Positions 11,374 through 59,719 of a DNA stretch of 64,000 nt are shown in pieces. Source of the stretch: Candidatus Rokuibacteriota bacterium. Lineage in GTDB: Bacteria > Methylomirabilota > Methylomirabilia > Rokubacteriales > CSP1-6. Location of the stretch: positions 231,397-295,396 of the forward strand of contig QHSU01000057.1 of NCBI GenBank assembly GCA_003220535.1. The letters are read 5' to 3'. Under the pieces are notes generated by a model, which saw only the letters and a program-made list of their open reading frames with translations, was not told the origin of the DNA and made no database searches. The translations under genes and the position numbers were made by a program. The stretch's first letter is position 1, and each line of letters opens with the position of its first letter.

Positions 11374-12987
11374 CTACCGACGCCCGGAGGTCGCCGGGAG
11401 AGCGTCGATATCCGCGCCGATGTCGCGGCCGTCGGTCCCAGCCTTCTTGTATGGGCTCGACGCGGCCAGGCGATAGTTGCCTCCAGCCAAATCCACGAAG
11501 CCAACCTTGTCCAGCGAGGCGGGGAAGGAATTATTGGGCGGATAGAGCGATGGCGTGGCCCCGACCATCACGTTCATCAGAAACACCGCGCCGGGGAAGT
11601 AGGTCCTCACGGCCGCCAGTCCCTCGCCGACGCCGCTCCCGAAGACCCCGTAGCTGCCTTTGGGGCTGAGATTATTACGATAGACGAATCCGGCGTGGGG
11701 CTTCCCCTCCGCGAAGAGGACGGGACCGTCCTGGAAAGCGGTGTTGTGGTCGATCACCACGTCTGTCGTCCCCGCCCGGTAATCCAGGATCTGGAAGAGC
11801 CGTCCGTGGCCACCCCACCCGGCCCCGCTGACGTCCTCGAACAGGTTGTCCCGGATGAGGACCCGCTTCATGGTTTGGCTCGGGTTGGGATCGTCGGTCC
11901 CCAGGATGCTGATCCCCGATCCGGCGTGGCGGACGATGTTGCGGATGAACGTCACGTCCTCGATCGTGGACCAGGGAGCGCGGCCGTACTGGTTGCGGAC
12001 CGTCAACTGCACCGCGAAGCCGGCTTGGTCGGCGAGCCAGATGTTCTCCAAAACATTGCCCTGCACCAGCACCCGCCGGGCGTTTTTCAGCTCGAGGAGG
12101 TTCTTGACGCTCCACTCCGCGCCGGCATAGCTCGGATCGCCCTTCCGCCACGAGAGCGGTTTGAAGAAGTGGTTGTCTCGGATGTCGATGTCGGAGGGCA
12201 CCAGGTCGCGGATCGCGGGATCGGCGCCACCGAACATGACGTTCTCGCCCGCAGCTTCCAGATGGTTGTTGACGATCTTGAAGGGACCGGGCCCGTTCCA
12301 GCCCATGATGGCCTGGGAGTCGGCGCCGGCCTCCTTGAAATCGGCCAGGTGGGAATCGACGACCGCGAGGGACTTGCCGTTCAGCGCGACGCCCCGCCGG
12401 CTGCCTCGGACCGGATCGCCGTGCAGGTAGCAGCGATCGACGATGATGTCGTGCGGCAGCATCGCGTCGCTGGTCTCCTTCCCCGACCCGAGCTCCATCA
12501 GGCTGTAGACGAAAGCGCCGGACTCTGGTCTGACCTCGATGCCGATGAACCGGAAATGATGAGCGCCCGGCGCCGCCTGGATCACGGCGCCGGCCCCAGT
12601 GCCCGCTACCAGCTTCGGCATCACCGTGGCGTGCGCCCGGGTTGCCCGCGTGCCGGAAGGGGGCAGGCCGGTGTCGGGTGCAGCAGTGCGCACCGTGATC
12701 CAGCCCGTTCCAGTCTTCTCGGGCAGCGTGAACGGGCCCCGAAACGTCGCCCCGGCCTCGAGGGTAATCACGTCCCCGGGCTGCGCAGCGTTGAGCGCGG
12801 TCTGGACGTTGCCGCCGGCGGCGACGGCGATCGTGCGGCCGGTCGGTCGCGCATCTCGCGTGTCCACCGCCGCGCGGGGACGCTCGGGTTGGGCGGCCCA
12901 GACCGGAGCGAAAAGCAGCCACAGCCCGGCTGTCGGCAGAACGCTACTGACGAGCGTGCGATGCGCGAGCCGTCGTCCGAGTCCCAT
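11374..12987 (-). CDS. Secreted right-handed parallel beta-helix protein (copy A)
   Basis: 537 residues on the minus strand. A signal peptide spans about residues 1-31 (AGLWLLFAPVWAA). The N-terminal cap is GGNVQTALNAAQPGDVITLEAGATF, an epimerase/lyase-type beta-helix entry (seen as GGNVQTALNAAQPGD). Repeating coils follow, rich in Asn/Val ladders (IVDRCYLHG, IVNNHLEAAGENV, IRDNHFF, LIRDNLFEDV). The C-terminus is LAGGNYRLAASSPYK...DIGADIDAL. Such folds occur in polysaccharide lyases and C5-epimerases that trim EPS in the periplasm. No catalytic residues could be assigned. It interrupts the plus-strand operon and diverges from the polymerase gene. Homologous to 54239-55975 and to the pseudogene at 52230-53758. 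Confidence 0.85.
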   Translation of the reverse strand: MGLGRRLAHRTLVSSVLPTAGLWLLFAPVWAAQPERPRAAVDTRDARPTGRTIAVAAGGNVQTALNAAQPGDVITLEAGATFRGPFTLPEKTGTGWITVRTAAPDTGLPPSGTRATRAHATVMPKLVAGTGAGAVIQAAPGAHHFRFIGIEVRPESGAFVYSLMELGSGKETSDAMLPHDIIVDRCYLHGDPVRGSRRGVALNGKSLAVVDSHLADFKEAGADSQAIMGWNGPGPFKIVNNHLEAAGENVMFGGADPAIRDLVPSDIDIRDNHFFKPLSWRKGDPSYAGAEWSVKNLLELKNARRVLVQGNVLENIWLADQAGFAVQLTVRNQYGRAPWSTIEDVTFIRNIVRHAGSGISILGTDDPNPSQTMKRVLIRDNLFEDVSGAGWGGHGRLFQILDYRAGTTDVVIDHNTAFQDGPVLFAEGKPHAGFVYRNNLSPKGSYGVFGSGVGEGLAAVRTYFPGAVFLMNVMVGATPSLYPPNNSFPASLDKVGFVDLAGGNYRLAASSPYKKAGTDGRDIGADIDALPATSGRR

Positions 12988-50879: not shown

Positions 50880-52217
50880 ATGCGCGTCAACATCTTCGGG
50901 ATGGGATATGTGGGCTGCGTGACCGCGGCTTGCTTGGCCAGGGCCGGGCACGAGATCGTCGGCGTGGATGTCAGCAAGGAAAAGGTGGACATGATCAATG
51001 CCGGCGCGTCACCGGTCGTTGAGCCGGGCCTGACCGAGCTCCTGGCCGAGGTGGTGGGCGCGCGGCGGCTCAGGGCGACGACGTCGCCTCGGGACGCGGT
51101 GGCGAGCTCGGCGCTCTCGCTCATCTGTGTCGGGACCCCCGGGCGCGTCAACGGGCAACTGGACCTGCGCGCCATCGAGCGCGTCGGACGGGCGATCGGC
51201 GAGGCGCTCACGGCCCGCAGCGAGATCCACACCGTCGTGCTCCGGAGCACCGTGCTGCCCGGAGTCACAGAGAAGGTTCTCGTCCCCGCGATTCTTTCCG
51301 GGGCTGGGCCAGACTATCGGCCCCGCCTGCGCGTCGCCGTGAACCCCGAGTTCATGCGTGAGGGTTCGTCGCTGCGAGACTTCGCGACGCCGCCTCTCAC
51401 CCTCGTGGGATGCGACGATCCCGAAACTGCCGGGCTGCTCCGGTCACTCTACGCCGGCGTGGACGCCCCGTTCGTGCACGCTGGGGTGAAGACCGCGGAG
51501 ATGGCCAAGTACGTGGCGAACGCCTTCCACGCGCTCAAAGTGAGCTTTGCCAACGAGATCGGCGATTTGTGCGCGGCGCTCGGCGCCGACGCGCAGGAGG
51601 TCATACGAATTTTCCTGATGGACCGAAAGCTCAACGTGTCCGAGGCCTATCTCCGCCCGGGCTTCGCGTTCGGCGGCTCGTGCCTCCCGAAGGACCTCCG
51701 GGCGTTACTGTATGCCGCTCGAACAGCTGATGTGTCGCCGCTGGTGCTCTCCGCGATCCTGCCCTCCAACGAGGCGCAGATCCACCGGGGAATCGACGCC
51801 GTGCTGGAAACTCGCAAGCGCCGGGTGGGCGTCGTGGGCCTGTCCTTCAAGCCGGGGACCGACGACCTCCGGGAGAGTCCGATGGTCCCGCTGGTCGAGG
51901 CACTCATCGGCAAGGGATGCGACGTACGAATCCTCGACCCGAACGTCTCGTTCGCACGCCTGGTCGGCGCCAATCGTCGCTACATCGTAGAGGAGATTCC
52001 CCACATCGCGTCGTTGATGTGCGAGGACATCCAGCGGTTCCTCGACCACGCGGAAGTCCTGGTGATCGGAAGCGCGAGCCGGGAGGCGACGCTCGTCCTC
52101 GCCGCGATCGGCCCCGATCACATCGTCGTCGATCTGACACGCGGCGCCGTGCGGCCGCTCTCGACGCCAGGTCTGGAAGCCCAGTCCGATGGCGGCCACG
52201 CACCTCGAGTCACGTAG
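50880..52217 (+). CDS. UDP-glucose/GDP-mannose dehydrogenase family protein, AlgD-like
   Basis: 445 residues. NAD fold VNIFGMGYVGCVTAACLARAG, then NPEFMREGSSLRDF, the central helix KTAEMAKYVANAFHALKVSFANEIGD, DRKLNVSEAYLRPGFAFGGSCLPKDLRAL with the catalytic Cys, and LSFKPGTDDLRESPMV. The HKLN/RKLNVS and YxRPGFAFGGSCLPKD pattern is that of GDP-mannose 6-dehydrogenase. It would oxidise GDP-mannose to GDP-mannuronate, giving the uronic acid for amidation and lyase/epimerase action. It is the last plus-strand gene before the rearranged zone. Confidence 0.9.
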   Translation: MRVNIFGMGYVGCVTAACLARAGHEIVGVDVSKEKVDMINAGASPVVEPGLTELLAEVVGARRLRATTSPRDAVASSALSLICVGTPGRVNGQLDLRAIERVGRAIGEALTARSEIHTVVLRSTVLPGVTEKVLVPAILSGAGPDYRPRLRVAVNPEFMREGSSLRDFATPPLTLVGCDDPETAGLLRSLYAGVDAPFVHAGVKTAEMAKYVANAFHALKVSFANEIGDLCAALGADAQEVIRIFLMDRKLNVSEAYLRPGFAFGGSCLPKDLRALLYAARTADVSPLVLSAILPSNEAQIHRGIDAVLETRKRRVGVVGLSFKPGTDDLRESPMVPLVEALIGKGCDVRILDPNVSFARLVGANRRYIVEEIPHIASLMCEDIQRFLDHAEVLVIGSASREATLVLAAIGPDHIVVDLTRGAVRPLSTPGLEAQSDGGHAPRVT

Positions 52218-52229
52218 CTCGTCGCCAGG

Positions 52230-53758
52230 CTAGAGGGCGCGCACGGCGGCACGGAGCTCGTTCAGGTGGATGGCCTTGATGACGCTGAGCCCGGTGGGAT
52301 CGGTGTAAGTCGGGGCAACCTGGCCGGCCGCTTGATAGGCTTGGTTCAGGGCGGTCCGCAGCTCGGTCAAGTGAACGCCTCTGACCCAGGTGCCCCCAAC
52401 CGCGAGCGTGGGATCGGTCCAGGCAAAGGGCGCCAGCCCGCGTGCGACGCGAACGCTATCGATGGCCGCCCGAAGCTCCATGACGTGCACCACCTTGATG
52501 GGCGTGCTCTGTGCGGCGAGCGGATCGTCGGTGAACGTGAGGGTGGCCGAGAGCGTCACTGTGACGCTGGCCGTGGCGGTGTTGGCGGCGGCGTCGCGCG
52601 CGGTGACCGTCAGCACGTTGGTGCCGGGCTCGAGGACGATCCCGCTGGCCGTCCAGCTGGTCGTCCCGGTCGCCGTTCCGCTGCCGCCCCGATTGTTGGC
52701 CCACGTCACCTGAGTCACCCCGACGTTGTCGGCCGCGGTCCCGCCGAGTGTCAGGGAGGAGCTGCTCGTTGTGTAGGTCGGATTGGAGGTGGGCGAGGTA
52801 ATGGTCGCGGTGGGCGGCGTCAGATCGAGATTGCTGACGGTCACCGCGACGGCGGCCGACGTCGTGATGTTTCCGGCGGCGTCATAGGCGCGGGCGGTGA
52901 GACTGTGGGAGCCATTGCTCACGCTGGTGGTCGACCACGGGTAGGTGAAGGCGGGCGGGGCCAGGGCGGCGATGAGCTGGCCGTCCCGCGTCACTCGTAT
53001 CGATTACCACCACGCCCGACACCGTCTGCCCGGTGGTCGGTGAGGAGATGGTCACGGTCGGCGGCGTCGTGTCCTCAGCCGGCTCCGTTGGGGAAACCAC
53101 ACCCGCCGTCGCCGCCTCGAGGGCGTCGATGTCGGCGCCGATATCGGTGCCATCGGTGGCCGCGTTCTTGTATGGACTGGACGAGGCCAGGCGGTAGTTG
53201 CGCTGGCGAGATCGACGAAGCCCACAGCGGCGAGCGAGGGGGGGAAATAATTCTCCGGCGGGTAGATCAGCGCGCCGGCCAGGGGGTTGACCTCGATGCC
53301 GATGAACCGAAAGTGGTGAGCCTGCGCGGCCGTCTGGATGGCTCCACCCACGCCCGTCCCGACGACGAGCTTCGGCATGACGGCGGCATACGAGGGACTC
53401 ACTCGGTTCCTGGGGGCGGGAGGCTGCTGTCGGGGGCGCTGGTCCGGACCGTGATCCAGCCCAGTCCGGCCTTATTGGGCAGCGTGAACGGGCCGCGGAA
53501 GGTCGCCCCCGCCTGTAGCGTGATCACATCGCCCGGTTGCGCGGCATTGAGCGCGGCCTGGAGATCCCCTCCCGCCGGCACGATGATGGTCTGGCCCGAC
53601 GGTGGCACGAGCGTGGTGTCGAGAAATGCGCGCGGGAGCTCGGGAGGTTGCGCCTCGGAACTCGCGACCATCGCCGTAGGCAGGAGCAGCAGACCAATCG
53701 CGATTCCGCCAACAGGGAGAAGAACGAGCGCGCGGCGAACGCTCGCTCCCGAGTGCAT
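52230..53758 (-). pseudogene. Broken secreted beta-helix/Ig/HxxELR-repeat protein (copy B, decayed)
   Basis: Four minus-strand ORF pieces in different frames read as one damaged gene. Piece 1 (53399-53758): signal peptide (LPVGGIAIGLLLLPTAMVASS) and GGDLQAALNAAQPGDVITLQ, matching the beta-helix cap of 11374-12987. Piece 2: PKLVVGTGVGGAIQ...HHFRFIGIEV, then a jump across most of the helix to FPPSLAAVGFVDLAS. After a frame change comes an Ig-like stretch (TPPTVTISSPTTGQTVSG). Piece 4 (52230-52994): Ig-like DLTPPTATITSP repeats and three HxxELR repeats. Frame changes lie near 53400, 53205 and 53005. Confidence 0.8.
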
Positions 53759-53810
53759 CGAAGTTCCTCTCCGTGCGGAGTACCCGATGTTTCCCGGGGC
53801 CGCGAAGTGT

Positions 53811-53878
53811 GCCCTCCCTCGGTAGCGCGGCCGTCAGATGCGTGCGGCCCGTCTCACGACGGGGGTGTGCCCTTACCT
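53811..53878 (-). ncRNA. Degraded GEMM-I (c-di-GMP-I type) riboswitch, copy B
   Basis: Minus-strand RNA retains GGGCACACC, the GTCGTGAGAC stem with a GUGA tetraloop, and CUACCGAGG, but has lost about 20 nt including the GCAAAGCC and ACGGGCC core present in copy A (56311-56393). The receptor half is therefore broken. It likely no longer binds ligand, and it lies before a frameshifted gene. Confidence 0.65.
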
Positions 53879-53912
53879 GGGAGGGTCTTTTCCTCTGGAA
53901 GACTAAGGGATT

Positions 53913-53927
53913 GCACGGGGGGTGCCA
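53913..53927 (-). promoter_or_regulatory. Sigma-54 (RpoN) -24/-12 promoter, copy B
   Basis: Minus strand TGGCACCCCCCGTGC has GG and GC separated by exactly 10 nt, matching the TGGCAC-N5-TTGC consensus except G for the first T of the -12 block. The predicted start is about 12 nt downstream, giving a roughly 140-nt leader that contains the riboswitch remnant. An identical sequence occurs at 56426-56440. Confidence 0.85.
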
Positions 53928-54026
53928 AGGAACGATCACGACGGGTCAGGCGCATCAAGATCTGGAAATCGCAGGAGCTTGAGCGGCTGTGTGGGAATCC
54001 GATCGGCGTATCTATGCTGAACGGCT

Positions 54027-54047
54027 ACGTGACACAAAGTGTCACGT
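54027..54047. promoter_or_regulatory. Palindromic upstream activator-like site, copy B
   Basis: ACGTGACAC-N3-GTGTCACGT is a perfect 9-bp-arm inverted repeat about 100 bp upstream of the sigma-54 promoter, the right place for an enhancer-binding-protein site. A slightly imperfect homologue lies at 56532-56548. Confidence 0.6.
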
Positions 54048-54238: not shown

Positions 54239-55975
54239 CTATTCTTGCCAGCTGAAGGACAGCGTCAACCCGAAGGGAGCTGCCGGCGCCGCGGCCGGGC
54301 TGCAGACGCCCGAGATCGTGCAGGCTTGCCGGGCGTTCAGCGTATCGACGTTCACGCCGATGTCCGTCCCATCCGTCGCGAGGTTGCGATAGATCGACGT
54401 GGCAGCGAGATGGTAGTCCCCCGCCGCGAAGTTCACGAACCCCACAGCCAAGACCGTGACAGGGAAGAAGTTGTTGGCGGGATAGCTCAGGGAGCTTCCT
54501 CCGATCATCAGGTTGCGCGTGAACGGCGCCGCGGCGAAGCGCCCGTTCAGGGTTGGCGTGCCCTCGCCGAAGGACCCGGACACGAGTCCGAAGCTGCCGC
54601 GCTGGAAGATATTATTCTGGAACGTATTCGCCCCAGGCTCGAAGACCTGGTTCGTACTATCCTGCGCGTTGATGGGCGCCATGTTGGAGAACACGGTGTT
54701 GTGGTTGAAGACCATCTCTTGGGCGCTGTTGGGTTCGGGTGAGCCCGGGGAGTAGCTCGCGAAGGTCCAGGCGTTGCCGAGCCCACCCCAGGTCACCGAG
54801 TTGATGTCGTCGAAGAGGTTATTCTCAAAGAGGCCCCGCGCCATGTTGGACGAGGCGTTCGGGTCGTCATGCACGAGGAACTGGATGCCCGTTCCGCCGC
54901 TCTTGACGATGTTGTTCCGAAAGGTGATGTCTTGGACCCGCGATCCCGGATCAGTGCCGTTCTGGTTTCGGACGTTCAAGCGGATCAGTTGGCCCCCGTC
55001 CCCATTCGCGGGCACCCACGCGGTCTCGAAGCGGTTCCCCTCGATCAAGACGCGGGCCATGTTCTTCAGCTCGAAAGTTGTTTTCGCGACGACGCTCGTG
55101 CCGCGCCACCGGGCGGCATCCTTCGGGACGTAGTTATTGCGGAAGTCCAGGTCGGCCGGCCGGAGCGCGGCAGCGCTGGCGTCCGAGCCGCCGAACAGCA
55201 CATTGATCGCCGCCGCCTGGATGAAGTTATTGACGATCTTGAAGGGGCCCGATCCATTCCACGCGATCACGCCCTTGGACTCCCCGTCATCCCCCGAGAG
55301 GATTTGGTTCGGAGCGGCTTTCATGTCGTCCACGTAGGAGTCCAGCAGCGCGATCTTCGCACCATTCATCTGCACGCCGAACTTGAGCCCCGCCGAGAGC
55401 GCGGTCGAGAACGAATGCAGATACACACGGTCGAGCACGATGTTCGTCGCCAGCTGGCCGACGGTCGTCTCGGCGCCGCTGCCGATTCGGATCAGGGTGG
55501 CGTGCGGGGAGCCATTCGAGATGGTCACTTCGAGGCCGACGAGCCGCCACTGGCGGGCGCCGGCCAGGATGTCGATGATTGGGGTAAAACTCGCTCCCGT
55601 CCCCGGCCCCTGGATCTTCGGCATGTTCGTGGCGTTCGCAGGCCCGACGCGTGTCCCGGCGGCTGGCAGGGACGCAAGGGCGCTGCTCCGGATGATGATC
55701 CAGCCCGTCCCAGCCGCCCGCGCGGGGATCGTGAGAGCCCCGGTGAACGCGCTGCCCGCCTGGACGACGATCTCGTGGTTCAGGTTCGGGTTCGCCACGG
55801 CCGCGGCGTTGATCGCCGTTTGGATGCTGCCCCCCGCATTGACGGGGAAGGTCGATCCGGTAACCGCTGGAAGCGTGGTGTCGAAAGTGGTCGGAGGTGT
55901 TTGTGCCGAAGCGGGGGCGTGGACCCAGAGAAGCAGTCCGACGGTGACGGCGAACAGCCGGAACGCCGTCCTCAT
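54239..55975 (-). CDS. Secreted right-handed parallel beta-helix protein (copy A paralogue, intact)
   Basis: 578 residues from ATG 55975; the 737-residue ORF-track entry reads through unrelated upstream sequence. Signal peptide about residues 1-25 (VTVGLLLWVHAPASAQ). N-terminal cap GGSIQTAINAAAVANPN, then beta-helix coils (IVLDRVYLHSF, IALLDSYVDDMKAAP, FKIVNNFIQAAAINVLFGG, IEGNRFETAW, ITFRNNIVKSGGTGIQF). The closing segment is GDYHLAATSIYRNLATDGTDIGVNVDTL. It parallels 11374-12987, with lower identity. A translationally coupled short ORF precedes it. Probable lyase/epimerase-like glycan-processing or binding role; no active site assigned. Confidence 0.85.
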   Translation of the reverse strand: MRTAFRLFAVTVGLLLWVHAPASAQTPPTTFDTTLPAVTGSTFPVNAGGSIQTAINAAAVANPNLNHEIVVQAGSAFTGALTIPARAAGTGWIIIRSSALASLPAAGTRVGPANATNMPKIQGPGTGASFTPIIDILAGARQWRLVGLEVTISNGSPHATLIRIGSGAETTVGQLATNIVLDRVYLHSFSTALSAGLKFGVQMNGAKIALLDSYVDDMKAAPNQILSGDDGESKGVIAWNGSGPFKIVNNFIQAAAINVLFGGSDASAAALRPADLDFRNNYVPKDAARWRGTSVVAKTTFELKNMARVLIEGNRFETAWVPANGDGGQLIRLNVRNQNGTDPGSRVQDITFRNNIVKSGGTGIQFLVHDDPNASSNMARGLFENNLFDDINSVTWGGLGNAWTFASYSPGSPEPNSAQEMVFNHNTVFSNMAPINAQDSTNQVFEPGANTFQNNIFQRGSFGLVSGSFGEGTPTLNGRFAAAPFTRNLMIGGSSLSYPANNFFPVTVLAVGFVNFAAGDYHLAATSIYRNLATDGTDIGVNVDTLNARQACTISGVCSPAAAPAAPFGLTLSFSWQE

Positions 55976-56262
55976 CAGCCGCTCGCTTGCGCGGGCGGGC
56001 GCGGCGTCGATGCGCCGGCCGCAGACAGGATCTCGATGCCGTTGAACCGGAAATGATGGGCCCCTGAGGCGGTCTGGATTGCCGATCCCACGCTTGGGCC
56101 GGCGACGAGCTTCGGCATGACGGCGGCGTACGAGAGGGTTGCGCGCGTACCCGGCGAGGGGAGGCTGCTGTCGGGGGCGCTGGTGCGGACGGTGATCCGG
56201 CGCCCGCCAACGGGGAGAAGAACGAGCGCGTGACGTACGCTCGAACCCGCTCCTGAAAACAT
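55975..56262 (-). pseudogene. 95-residue truncated beta-helix ORF coupled to the downstream gene
   Basis: From ATG 56262 after GAAGGGAG, a 95-residue frame fuses a signal-peptide start (RHALVLLPVGG) directly to WITVRTSAPDSSLPSPG-like sequence (RITVRTSAPDSSL), then PKLVAGPSVGSAIQ...HHFRFNGIEI, and ends. Relative to 11374-12987 it lacks the beta-helix cap strands and the whole body. Its TGA overlaps the ATG of the 578-residue gene, and that gene has only a weak ribosome site, so translation is probably coupled. Confidence 0.75.
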
Positions 56263-56310
56263 CCTGGTCTCCCTTCGCGGAAGACCCGGTGTTCCCGGGG
56301 ACGAGCGCGC

Positions 56311-56393
56311 CCTCCTTCGGTAGCCCGGCCGTCAGGCGCCTTGCCTGGCCCGTGGCTTTGCAGCCCCGTCTCACGACGGGTGTGCCCTTATCG
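56311..56393 (-). ncRNA. GEMM-I riboswitch (c-di-GMP-I type)
   Basis: Minus-strand RNA reads AAGGGCACACC, CGUC-GUGA-GACG stem with a GNRA tetraloop, GGGGCUGCAAAGCCACGG, then a variable stem AGGC...GCCU and GGCCGGGCUACCGAAGG. These are the conserved blocks of RF01051 (GGGCAAACC, GACGCAAAGCC, CGGGUUACCGA). The base in the position of Vc2 G20 reads G, which favours c-di-GMP over cGAMP. A CCCGG/CCGGG hairpin and then the ribosome site follow, so control of initiation or termination is possible. Confidence 0.82.
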
Positions 56394-56425
56394 GGAGGGT
56401 CTTCCCTCTGAAAGACCAAGGATTT

Positions 56426-56440
56426 GCACGGGGGGTGCCA
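56426..56440 (-). promoter_or_regulatory. Sigma-54 (RpoN) -24/-12 promoter, copy A
   Basis: Identical core TGGCACCCCCCGTGC with GG-N10-GC spacing. The riboswitch begins about 25 nt downstream of the predicted start site, so promoter and riboswitch act in series on the same transcript. Confidence 0.87.
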
Positions 56441-56531
56441 AGGAGCGATCACGACATGTCAGGCGCACCAAGATCTGGAAATCGCAGGGGCTTGAGCGGC
56501 TGCGTGGAATCCGATCGGCATATCGGGGCGA

Positions 56532-56548
56532 GTAACACGCAGTGTCAC
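56532..56548. promoter_or_regulatory. Palindromic upstream activator-like site, copy A
   Basis: GTAACAC-N3-GTGTCAC, an inverted repeat with one mismatch, about 92 bp upstream of the -24 element. It is conserved between the two control regions while much of the surrounding sequence has drifted. Confidence 0.55.
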
Positions 56549-56733
56549 ATTCGACCTCCATATGTGCTTTCTGGCACCTCTAGTTCGCGATGGGTCGCCA
56601 GCGTTGCCGAGTCCCTTGATCTGAGCCCCGACTTCGTTTCTTCCCGGGCGGTTGTGAACTTGACTCCGACGTCGGCGCCGTCGAGTTCGAAGTGGCCCCC
56701 GACGACGCCGACGTTGTCAGCCCGGTTTCCCTT

Positions 56734-57961: not shown

Positions 57962-58165
57962 CGACTTATTGGGGATTCCCCGAGTGGAGCGCCACCGGCG
58001 CGGATTCTACTGTAGCAGTGCCGTGAGGCAAGCGGGGGCGATGAGTCCGTAGCAGGGCCGGTTTCGGCCCGGAGGGCTCGGCAATGATGACGACGGTGAG
58101 GTGGGCGGGTGCTGCAGTCGCAACGGCGGCGCTGGTGCTCGGGCCTGGGCGTCCTCTGGCCGCCC
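57873..58165. repeat. Right copy of long direct repeat flanking the EPS locus
   Basis: Direct-orientation copy of 1645-1964, lacking one 24-bp unit. The leader hairpin is more regular here: GGGCCG-GUUU-CGGCCC inside a GAGUCC/GGGCUC outer stem, which overlaps the GGAGGG ribosome site of the export gene. Here the shared signal-peptide code continues into an intact gene. Confidence 0.9.
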
Positions 58166-58662
58166 CTCCGGTCCCACCAAGCGGGTACACGATCGGCCCC
58201 GAGGACCTCCTCGACGTCACGGTGTGGAACAACACGGGGATCAGCCGGACGGTGCCCGTCCGGCCCGACGGCAAGATCTCGCTGCCGCTGCTCGACGACG
58301 TGCAGGCCGCCGGCCTCACCCCCAAGCAGCTCAAGGATGACCTGACCAGAAGGTTGGCCAAGTACATCTCCGCACCCGAGGTGTCGGTCATCATCCGCGA
58401 GATCCACAGCCTCCGGGTTGCGGTGCTCGGTGAGGTGAACAAGCCCGGCCGCTACGACCTCAAGAGCCGCGCCTCCGTCCTCGATGCCATCGCCCTCGCC
58501 GGGGGGTTCAACCCCTTCGCCCGTCGGTCGAAGATGGTGATCGTCCGGGTGGAGGGCTCGACCGTCACGCGCATCCCCTGCGACTACAACAAGGTCGTCT
58601 CCGCCGACGGCCAGCAGGAGAGCTTCTTCCTCCGACCCGGCGACACCCTGATCGTGCCCTGA
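58084..58662 (+). CDS. Polysaccharide export protein, Wza/EpsE type (copy 2)
   Basis: 192 residues. ATG 58084 or 58087, after GGAGGG. Signal peptide about residues 1-27 (AALVLGPGRPLAA), no lipobox cysteine. Poly_export domain YTIGPEDLLDVTVWNN and VRPDGKISLPLLDDVQ; SLBB-like VLGEVNKPGRYDLKS. It resembles the 207-residue copy 1 (2717). Its signal peptide, not that of copy 1, is the one duplicated in the left repeat. Confidence 0.92.
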   Translation: MMTTVRWAGAAVATAALVLGPGRPLAAPPVPPSGYTIGPEDLLDVTVWNNTGISRTVPVRPDGKISLPLLDDVQAAGLTPKQLKDDLTRRLAKYISAPEVSVIIREIHSLRVAVLGEVNKPGRYDLKSRASVLDAIALAGGFNPFARRSKMVIVRVEGSTVTRIPCDYNKVVSADGQQESFFLRPGDTLIVP

Positions 58663-58663
58663 C

Positions 58664-59719
58664 ATGGCGATGGCCCAGCGAGAGCACGGCGAGACCATCG
58701 TGGCCGGCCCAGGGCACGATGGCGGCTTCACGGTCACGTGGGCGCTCGCCGTCTTGCGACGGCACGCCCGGCTGGCGACCGTGGTCTTCAGCGTGGTGCT
58801 CGCGGGCGCCGCGACCTCCGCGATGTCGCTCCCCGACATCTATCGCTCGACGGCCACGGTGCTGGTCGAGCACCCCGGGACCACGGAGGGAGTCGGGAAA
58901 TCGCTGATCGCCGGTGAGCTCGAGACCCGGCTGCAGACGATCGGGCAGGAGGTGTTGAGCCAAGCCCGGCTCACGGCCCTCATGGACCGGTTCGATCTCT
59001 ATCCGGAGCTCAGGGCGCACGGAGCACACGCCGCCGCCGTCGAGCGCCTGCGACGCGATATCCAGGTGAAGCTGACGAAGGCAGAGCCGGGGGCGGGCCG
59101 GCCGACCACCGTCGCCTTCAGCATCATGTTTCGCTGGCGGCATCCCGAAACGGTCGCGCGCGTCGCCAACGCTCTGGCGGCCTTCTACGTCGAGGAGAAC
59201 GGTAAGATCCGCGAGCGCCAGGCGAGCGCCGCCCGGCTCACCCGCCTGACCCAAGAGCTGGCCCAGATGCAGGAGGTCTACACCTCCCAGTACCCGGACG
59301 TCATTCGGCTCAAAGCGGAGATCGCCGCGCTCGAGCGCCTGCCCAGGGCGACCGCTGCGGTGGGGGAAGAATTCCGCATCCTGGATCCCGCAAGCCCCGC
59401 TCGGAGCCCGGCCGCGCCGAAGCGCTTCGGATTCGTCCTGCTCGGGATCGGTCTCGGCCTCGGCGCGGCGGTGGCGGCGGTGCTCCTCGCCGATCAGTTC
59501 GACGGATCGTTCCACACGCTCGAGGAGCTCCGGGCGTTCACGAACGTGCCCGTCCTGGCGAGCATTCCCCGCATCGGCGTCGCCCGCCCGAACCGGCAGC
59601 CGCGCTGGCTGACTGCGGCGCCGATCGCAGTCGGCCTGGTGCTGGTGGTGCTCGTCTCCTACCATCTCGCGAGCGGCAACGACCAGCTGGCCTTTCTCTT
59701 CTCGCGAACCACGCCGTGA
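58664..59719 (+). CDS. Wzz-type chain-length determinant with shortened coiled coil (copy 2)
   Basis: 351 residues against 510 in copy 1. Helix near 37-55 and IYRSTATVLVEHPG, then ENGKIRERQASAARLTRL. About 150 residues of coiled coil are gone between here and QMQEVYTSQYPDVIRLKAEI. The second and third hydrophobic segments (FVLLGIGLGLGAAVAAVLLA, APIAVGLVLVVLVSYHLASG) are kept. Wzz coiled-coil length influences modal chain length, so a different polymer length is possible. No kinase or ATPase follows; it ends 7 nt from the convergent UbiD gene. Confidence 0.9.
   Translation: MAMAQREHGETIVAGPGHDGGFTVTWALAVLRRHARLATVVFSVVLAGAATSAMSLPDIYRSTATVLVEHPGTTEGVGKSLIAGELETRLQTIGQEVLSQARLTALMDRFDLYPELRAHGAHAAAVERLRRDIQVKLTKAEPGAGRPTTVAFSIMFRWRHPETVARVANALAAFYVEENGKIRERQASAARLTRLTQELAQMQEVYTSQYPDVIRLKAEIAALERLPRATAAVGEEFRILDPASPARSPAAPKRFGFVLLGIGLGLGAAVAAVLLADQFDGSFHTLEELRAFTNVPVLASIPRIGVARPNRQPRWLTAAPIAVGLVLVVLVSYHLASGNDQLAFLFSRTTP

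Follow-up and report, generated by a model that had tools for sequence, protein, structure and literature searches.

The control region described here, on the minus strand of a 64,000-nt stretch of DNA from a Candidatus Rokubacteria soil bacterium (hereafter, the window), appears to act in two successive stages: sequence and modelling suggest, with a probability that we put at about 60%, that expression would require both an active enhancer-binding protein, acting on a sigma-54 promoter, and a low level of c-di-GMP, sensed by a GEMM-I riboswitch in the leader (activator AND NOT c-di-GMP). The original prediction was an AND gate, in which activator and c-di-GMP would both be needed. In the present reading the sign of the second input is reversed, as covariation and folding of 68-75 leaders associate a hidden Shine-Dalgarno (SD) sequence with formation of the P1 helix, i.e. 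with lowered translation in the presence of c-di-GMP.

Organization of the control region

The elements follow one another 5' to 3' on the minus strand, down to a start codon at 56262, as listed.

56532-56548, minus: putative enhancer-binding-protein site, dyad GTGACAC-TGC-GTGTTAC (0.00 expected in shuffles)
56477-56483, minus: GATTTCC(AGATNTTG) element, 43 bp above the -24 box, conserved with relatives; GATTTCCAGATCTTG runs from 56483
56426-56441, minus: sigma-54 -24/-12 promoter TTGGCACCCCCCGTGC, near-consensus, 10-bp GG/GC spacing
56414, minus: predicted transcript start (+1), 12 nt past the -12 C, from sigma-54 geometry
56397-56406, minus: L element GGGAAGACCC, RNA 5' end, pairing with A (covariation z -5.2 for L alone; explicit helices)
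56392-56399, minus: P1 5' strand, CCCUCC (56399-56394) and UCCCG (56396-56392), alternative pairing with R (covariation z -7.8 for the P1 strand alone)
56315-56395, minus: GEMM-I aptamer with G20, A47 and C92 (RF03167 and RF01051 covariance models)
56309-56314, minus: P1 3' strand GGAGGG (sequence; constrained fold)
56293-56297, minus: R element CGGGA, anti-P1, pairing with UCCCG of the P1 5' strand (covariation, explicit helices)
56279-56287, minus: A element GGGUCUUCC, pairing with L or S (covariation, helices)
56266-56273, minus: S element GGGAGACC with the SD sequence, hidden by an A:S hairpin (folding)

The sigma-54 promoter initially proposed is borne out by its near-consensus sequence, by the presence in the genome of rpoN, along with about 30 enhancer-binding-type ATPases, and by the occurrence of similar boxes before most GEMM-I aptamers of the class (see below); two exact matches to the TTGGCACCCCCCGTGC pattern are found in the window, where 0.07 are expected from shuffles. 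The aptamer begins about 31 nt downstream of this site. The enhancer-like site, which had been placed about 92 bp upstream, corresponds to a real dyad, common to relatives, whose 3' end is separated from the -24 box by 92 bp and whose centre lies about 126 bp upstream of the predicted start. GTGACAC was found in 17 upstream regions of relatives and in only 1 control region, the half-sites being mostly located 95-165 bp above the -24 box. No generic excess of upstream dyads was detected (50 vs 48 of 111 at 6 bp), enrichment being restricted to GTGACAC/GTGTCAC. Conservation extends to the GATTTCC element, present in 19 upstream regions and in no control region, nearly always on the same strand and, in most cases, 41-50 bp upstream of the -24 box; a class-wide scan for GATTTCC-N32-39-TGGCAY-N6-TGC produced 28 matches, against 1 for the reversed pattern.

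Exopolysaccharide genes adjoin the locus, and include a UDP-sugar dehydrogenase (50880-52217, plus) and Poly_export/SLBB polysaccharide export and Wzz-like genes (58084-58662 and 58664-59719, both plus).

Alternative pairing in the leader and proposed direction of the switch

Class leaders share a common plan: an L element (typically GGGAAGACC) at the 5' end is followed by the P1 5' strand, the aptamer, the P1 3' strand, the R (CGGGA), A (GGUCUUCC) and S elements, the last being the SD strand (e.g. GGAGGACC), and by a start codon about 55-60 nt past the aptamer. The sequence of A complements that of L as well as that of S. In a set of 75 leaders, the probability of the SD being unpaired is 0.25 in the native RNA, against 0.41 when the upstream sequence is shuffled.

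The 5' strand, defined as L plus the P1 5' strand (first ~15 nt), forms with the downstream sequence of its own leader a duplex of -22.2 kcal/mol, compared to -17.9 kcal/mol for permuted pairs (sd 0.39, z -11.2); the same covariation is found when a single leader per genome is retained (39 genomes, z -8.6). In several leaders both sides have been rewritten with pairing kept, as in GAAGGUU/AACCUUC and GCGGAGC/GCUCCGC. In the window, the alternative helix includes 14 bp on the 5' side, where GGAAGACCCUCCCG pairs with CGGGA...GGGUCUUCC, for a predicted energy of -25.8 kcal/mol.

The P1 and anti-P1 states were compared by imposing them as constraints, with energies that include neither a ligand term nor tertiary contacts. 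For transcripts that run from the predicted start to a point short of the SD, anti-P1 beats P1 in 63 out of 68 leaders, by a mean of -6.4 kcal/mol (-2.9 kcal/mol in the window). For the full RNA, the probability of an unpaired SD is 0.52 under anti-P1 and 0.25 under P1, the SD being more exposed in the former state in 54 leaders and less exposed in 4 (p 1.7e-9). The effect is small in the window (0.34 vs 0.20), and another locus of the same genome (L002) runs the opposite way (0.18 vs 0.65). Since the pairing between the 5' end and the region preceding the SD competes with P1, a P1 helix stabilised by the ligand should release the anti-SD strand, and the SD would then be masked. At full-length equilibrium, P1 is the preferred state in 52 of the 68 leaders (61 out of 75 in the untrimmed set), and an OFF switch would thus work only with kinetic folding; calculations at equilibrium do not by themselves reveal such a switch, SD exposure being unchanged when P1 was imposed on the full-length RNA. 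The simplest reading of covariation and folding is that of a kinetic translational OFF switch.

The proposed mechanism can be outlined as follows. In the first stage, as suggested by sequence and class-wide conservation, RpoN-RNA polymerase would wait at the -24/-12 site, to be remodelled by an enhancer-binding protein, activated by phosphorylation or by other means, sitting on the GTGACAC/GTGTCAC dyad. In the second, based on covariation and folding, the 5' end of the RNA would fall no more than a few nt from the L element. When c-di-GMP is absent, L and the P1 5' strand would pair with R and A upon their emergence, breaking P1, occupying A and leaving the SD in S more exposed; when c-di-GMP is present, P1 would be locked, and A would be free to pair with S, hiding the ribosome site. 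The first cistron to be translated in the window would be a relic of 95 aa, with its translation coupled, through a TGATG overlap, to that of a beta-helix gene, and the same module recurs across Rokubacteria before the various classes of targets described below.

The same anatomy might also support the opposite direction, with c-di-GMP turning translation on, if the bound P1 were extended by L:A pairing and A were kept off the SD strand. L is immediately adjacent to P1 on its 5' side, and L:A pairing is possible with P1 formed in ~0.40 of cut-transcript ensembles; moreover, every gene behind a GEMM-Ib switch in Geobacter was expressed at a lower level once the cGAMP synthase had been lost (PMC6456294), and the pilM riboswitch works in the ON direction (PMC9262584). 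We regard this direction as unlikely, although it deserves consideration: forcing P1 halves L:A pairing, from 0.77 to 0.40, anti-P1 uses L and the P1 strand together, with covariation, and the SD is less exposed in the P1 state in the large majority of leaders, as reported above. A simple version, in which L:A pairing alone would release the SD, was discarded, as equilibrium folding of full-length RNA with P1 forced produced no change in SD exposure, and was replaced by the anti-P1 model after the folding of cut transcripts.

Downstream genes and a decayed duplicate

The genes downstream of the region, and a second, degenerate copy of the region itself, are the following.

55975-56262, minus: 95-aa ORF, first cistron behind the riboswitch, internally deleted relic of the beta-helix family; its stop overlaps the next start (TGATG)
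54239-55975, minus: 578-aa protein, predicted to be a secreted right-handed beta-helix with a PL6-lyase-like fold (16 aligned homologues, AlphaFold)
54029-54045, minus: duplicate dyad GTGACAC-TTT-GTGTCAC, perfect, and better than that of the intact copy
53913-53970, minus: duplicate GATTTCC (53970-53964) and sigma-54 box (53928-53913)
53812-53885, minus: duplicate aptamer, eroded, with ~20 nt missing, including GCAAAGCC (P3 5' strand), before a frameshifted ORF with ATG at 53758 (alignment)

A secreted glycan-processing product of a beta-helix locus had been expected behind the riboswitch. The nature of the product is supported by modelling: AlphaFold returns a beta-helix (pLDDT 77, pTM 0.84) for the 578-aa protein, and the nearest PDB folds are PL6 alginate lyases, with best TM-scores of about 0.4-0.6. 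Its position, in contrast, had to be revised, the ORF directly behind the riboswitch being the relic and the intact beta-helix ORF starting at the overlapping stop. A 737-aa ORF running through the riboswitch was rejected as spurious, the real beta-helix start being at 55975. The 578-aa protein matches no Pfam or NCBIfam family, and a profile match to 6kfn (E 1.4e-5) covers ~56 positions. Its family is found in 16 of the 95 class genomes; according to coordinate comparison, a GEMM-I aptamer directly precedes a family gene in four other genomes (G048:C49, G051:C46 twice, G039:C49 and G042:C145). A second paralogue, 42% identical, is located in the window at 11386-12933 (minus).

The promoter region is repeated 2.5 kb downstream at 89% identity (53758-54045, minus). 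Neither this duplicate of the whole control region nor the relic as the immediate ORF had been noticed earlier. The duplicate is a decayed copy: its aptamer has lost ~20 nt and its ORF is frameshifted; for the same reasons it was rejected as a second working riboswitch, and its aptamer gave no covariance-model match. The intact copy may itself be partly decayed, as its riboswitch fronts a relic ORF.

These observations raise the question of whether the riboswitch has much regulatory effect at this copy, or whether a functional promoter leaves expression essentially to sigma-54 control, with the aptamer fronting nothing more than a relic. Internal deletion of the first ORF would agree with this, as would the neighbouring duplicate, which lost its aptamer and kept its promoter, and the other GATTTCC-sigma-54 promoters of the class that have no aptamer, or only relics. 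This is, nevertheless, improbable in our view: the aptamer and the A, R, S and L elements are all intact here, with the 14-bp alternative helix (-25.8 kcal/mol), and the relic ORF reaches as far as the TGATG overlap with an intact gene.

The aptamer and its ligand

The aptamer scores 63.4 bits with RF03167 (gathering 59, E 1.3e-12) and 60.3 bits with RF01051 (gathering 35), the latter being the model by which the prediction was to be judged. The anatomy originally described is also recognizable in full, with the GUGA (GNRA) loop and the GCAAAGCC and CUACCG blocks. By the Vc2 numbering, assigned within this analysis, the sequence features G20, A47 and C92, the last read directly from the sequence. 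The RF03167 consensus contains GCGAAG, whereas the window has GCAAAG, and thus lacks the G at the Vc2-A47 position that we read as the mark of the c-di-GMP-I-GGC variant; because of GCAAAG and of G20, A47 and C92, it was filed as an ordinary c-di-GMP-I aptamer.

The G at the position of Vc2 G20, on which the choice of c-di-GMP had been based, is thus present, and c-di-GMP is the likely ligand, judging from these three positions and from the GGDEF domains of the genome, five of which are readable and all canonical (GHxxGD), with no Hypr serine; a sixth (L230) has an internal stop. That the ligand is instead 3',3'-cGAMP, or another dinucleotide, appears very improbable, even if the score with RF03167 is slightly the higher of the two, the G20 position contributes to selectivity without being a hard filter (PMC9262584), and one aptamer of the same genome, on contig C89, has A20: G20 is found in 107 out of 113 class aptamers, and synthesis of cGAMP by a Hypr GGDEF was discarded, as none of the readable domains is of the serine variant. 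The A20 aptamer (L003 1500-1579, G000:C89:22707-22786), in which the region of Vc2 G20 reads AAGAGC, is preceded by two tandem sigma-54-like boxes. Five aptamers of the class have A20; no Hypr GGDEF was seen in the genome of the window.

A distinct aptamer subtype was observed in the window and in L189, L194, L196, L202, L207, L213, L214, L218 and L223, where GGCAAACC is changed to GGCACACC (or GGCACACT) together with A to C/U in GGGGAC (GGGGCC/GGGGUC/GGGGCU). The paired changes look like covariation between two junction positions.

Coupling of sigma-54 promoters and GEMM-I aptamers in the class

All four GEMM-I aptamers of the genome are preceded, at the same distance, by a TGGCAY-N6-TGC box. 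The C89 promoter lies ~1.1 kb from, and is divergent to, a gene for an NtrC-type enhancer-binding protein (G000:C89:23872-25209, plus), a candidate activator of that promoter.

The search was extended to every GEMM-I aptamer found by covariance models in 95 genomes of the class, regardless of promoter, giving ~114 aptamers in 50 genomes, 113 of which were retrieved. A box, defined as GG-N10-GC with at least 8 of 10 consensus matches between -100 and -20, was found before 95 of the 112 aptamers having enough upstream DNA (~85%), with most starts between -35 and -48. Control intervals at other distances contained 2-7 boxes per 108-111, shuffles 1.5, and cobalamin riboswitches of the same genomes 2 out of 29. 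Boxes are present in 81 of 93 aptamers of the main family, 9 of 10 of a distant one and 5 of 9 of the others. Their consensus is TGGCAC-N5-KTGC, in which the scan itself imposes GG and GC, and T/C/A/C/T at the positions left free occur in 83/92/84/64/92 of 95. Apart from the general weakness of consensus scans, nothing favours chance, or a by-product of GC-rich composition, which these figures and the fixed distance exclude for practical purposes.

The stack of controls originally described for this locus is, therefore, truly present but not special to it, the arrangement being class-wide. In the class, the genes behind these leaders code for secreted or surface proteins with Fn3/Ig-like domains, for beta-helix proteins, for pilins and for response regulators; in a soil group that is poorly cultured, the coupling amounts to control of secreted and surface proteins by two inputs. 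GATTTCC-sigma-54 promoters with the riboswitch absent, or present as a relic, were also observed (L343, L346, L349, L350, L330 and L336). Promoter and aptamer are, on this basis, separable, and loss of the aptamer with the promoter kept looks recurrent.

We consider it an even chance that the whole class uses promoter and aptamer as one standard part, in which an enhancer-binding protein would license transcription and c-di-GMP would veto translation by way of pairing of the RNA 5' end, itself set by the sigma-54 start, promoter and switch being inherited together, with repeated loss of aptamers from promoters that persist. Nature offers about a hundred variants of the coupled module for testing, and, since the expression platform is defined down to single bases, a laboratory host would allow tests of which way the switch works and of what the 5' end contributes.

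Comparison with known systems

The riboswitch class, the promoter class and the stacking of a transcription factor on a riboswitch (gbpA, PMC4545359) are already known. In the open-access literature we found no report of a systematic, lineage-wide coupling of GEMM-I and sigma-54 with fixed geometry, and no description of a covarying anti-P1 platform at the 5' end.

The V. cholerae Vc2 riboswitch, as summarized in PMC9262584, which cites Inuzuka 2018, is a translational OFF switch masking the ribosome site and hinging on P1 stability. It shares with the window the aptamer architecture, the GNRA loop and G20/A47/C92, and provides a precedent for a translational OFF GEMM-I; here, in contrast, the alternative partner of R and A would be the 5' end of the RNA itself (L and the P1 strand), conserved through the class, and transcription is predicted to depend on sigma-54. 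In V. cholerae gbpA, control at the promoter and a GEMM-I leader (Vc1) are similarly placed in series, the promoter being under cAMP-CRP rather than sigma-54, and inhibition by c-di-GMP is independent of Vc1 (PMC4545359).

The GG-N10-GC box, the upstream dyad, rpoN and the many enhancer-binding proteins are shared with sigma-54 (RpoN) promoters in general, from which the class differs in that nearly every GEMM-I leader stands on such a promoter, with GATTTCC ~43 bp above the box. In the PEP-CTERM/PrsR regulon, too, genes for secreted proteins located near exopolysaccharide genes are preceded by sigma-54 promoters, with an activator motif further upstream (Haft 2006, PMC1569441), an arrangement similar to the present one; motif 1 of that regulon ends in TTTACA, ~63 nt (32-92 nt) above the sigma-54 box, and no riboswitch is described there (PMC1569441). 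One PrsR-type regulator of this genome scores above the curated cut-off. Membership in the regulon was nevertheless rejected, the conserved element being the GTGACAC/GTGTTAC dyad and not the TTTACA motif, and the 578-aa protein having no PEP-CTERM family match. The Geobacter GEMM-I/GEMM-Ib regulon resembles that of the class in that its switches are widely found in front of genes for surface, pilus and polysaccharide functions, including a fibronectin-III target, but Geobacter switches mostly sense cGAMP, while G20 and canonical GGDEFs are found here.

Occurrence outside the class

When one genome per species was scanned with a pattern that included G20, 107 stretches were identified; among the 80 matches listed, ~30 are from Rokubacteria and a similar number from Desulfobacterota-type genomes, along with Nitrosomonas and some chance matches in coding sequences. 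In ten non-class genomes, picked for having a match and thus giving no unbiased rate, most canonical GGCAAACC aptamers have a box, while the GCCAAACC type does not. Targets of the sigma-54/GEMM arrangement in Nitrosomonas and Desulfosarcina (L263, L264, L265, L268, L271 and L274) resemble those of Rokubacteria (L149, L151 and L001), being LLFKSNF... and Fn3 ...AYRVYYG-like proteins. As the same stack precedes similar secreted proteins of the Fn3 and LLFKSNF types in Desulfosarcina relatives and in Nitrosomonas, it may represent a module shared across phyla.
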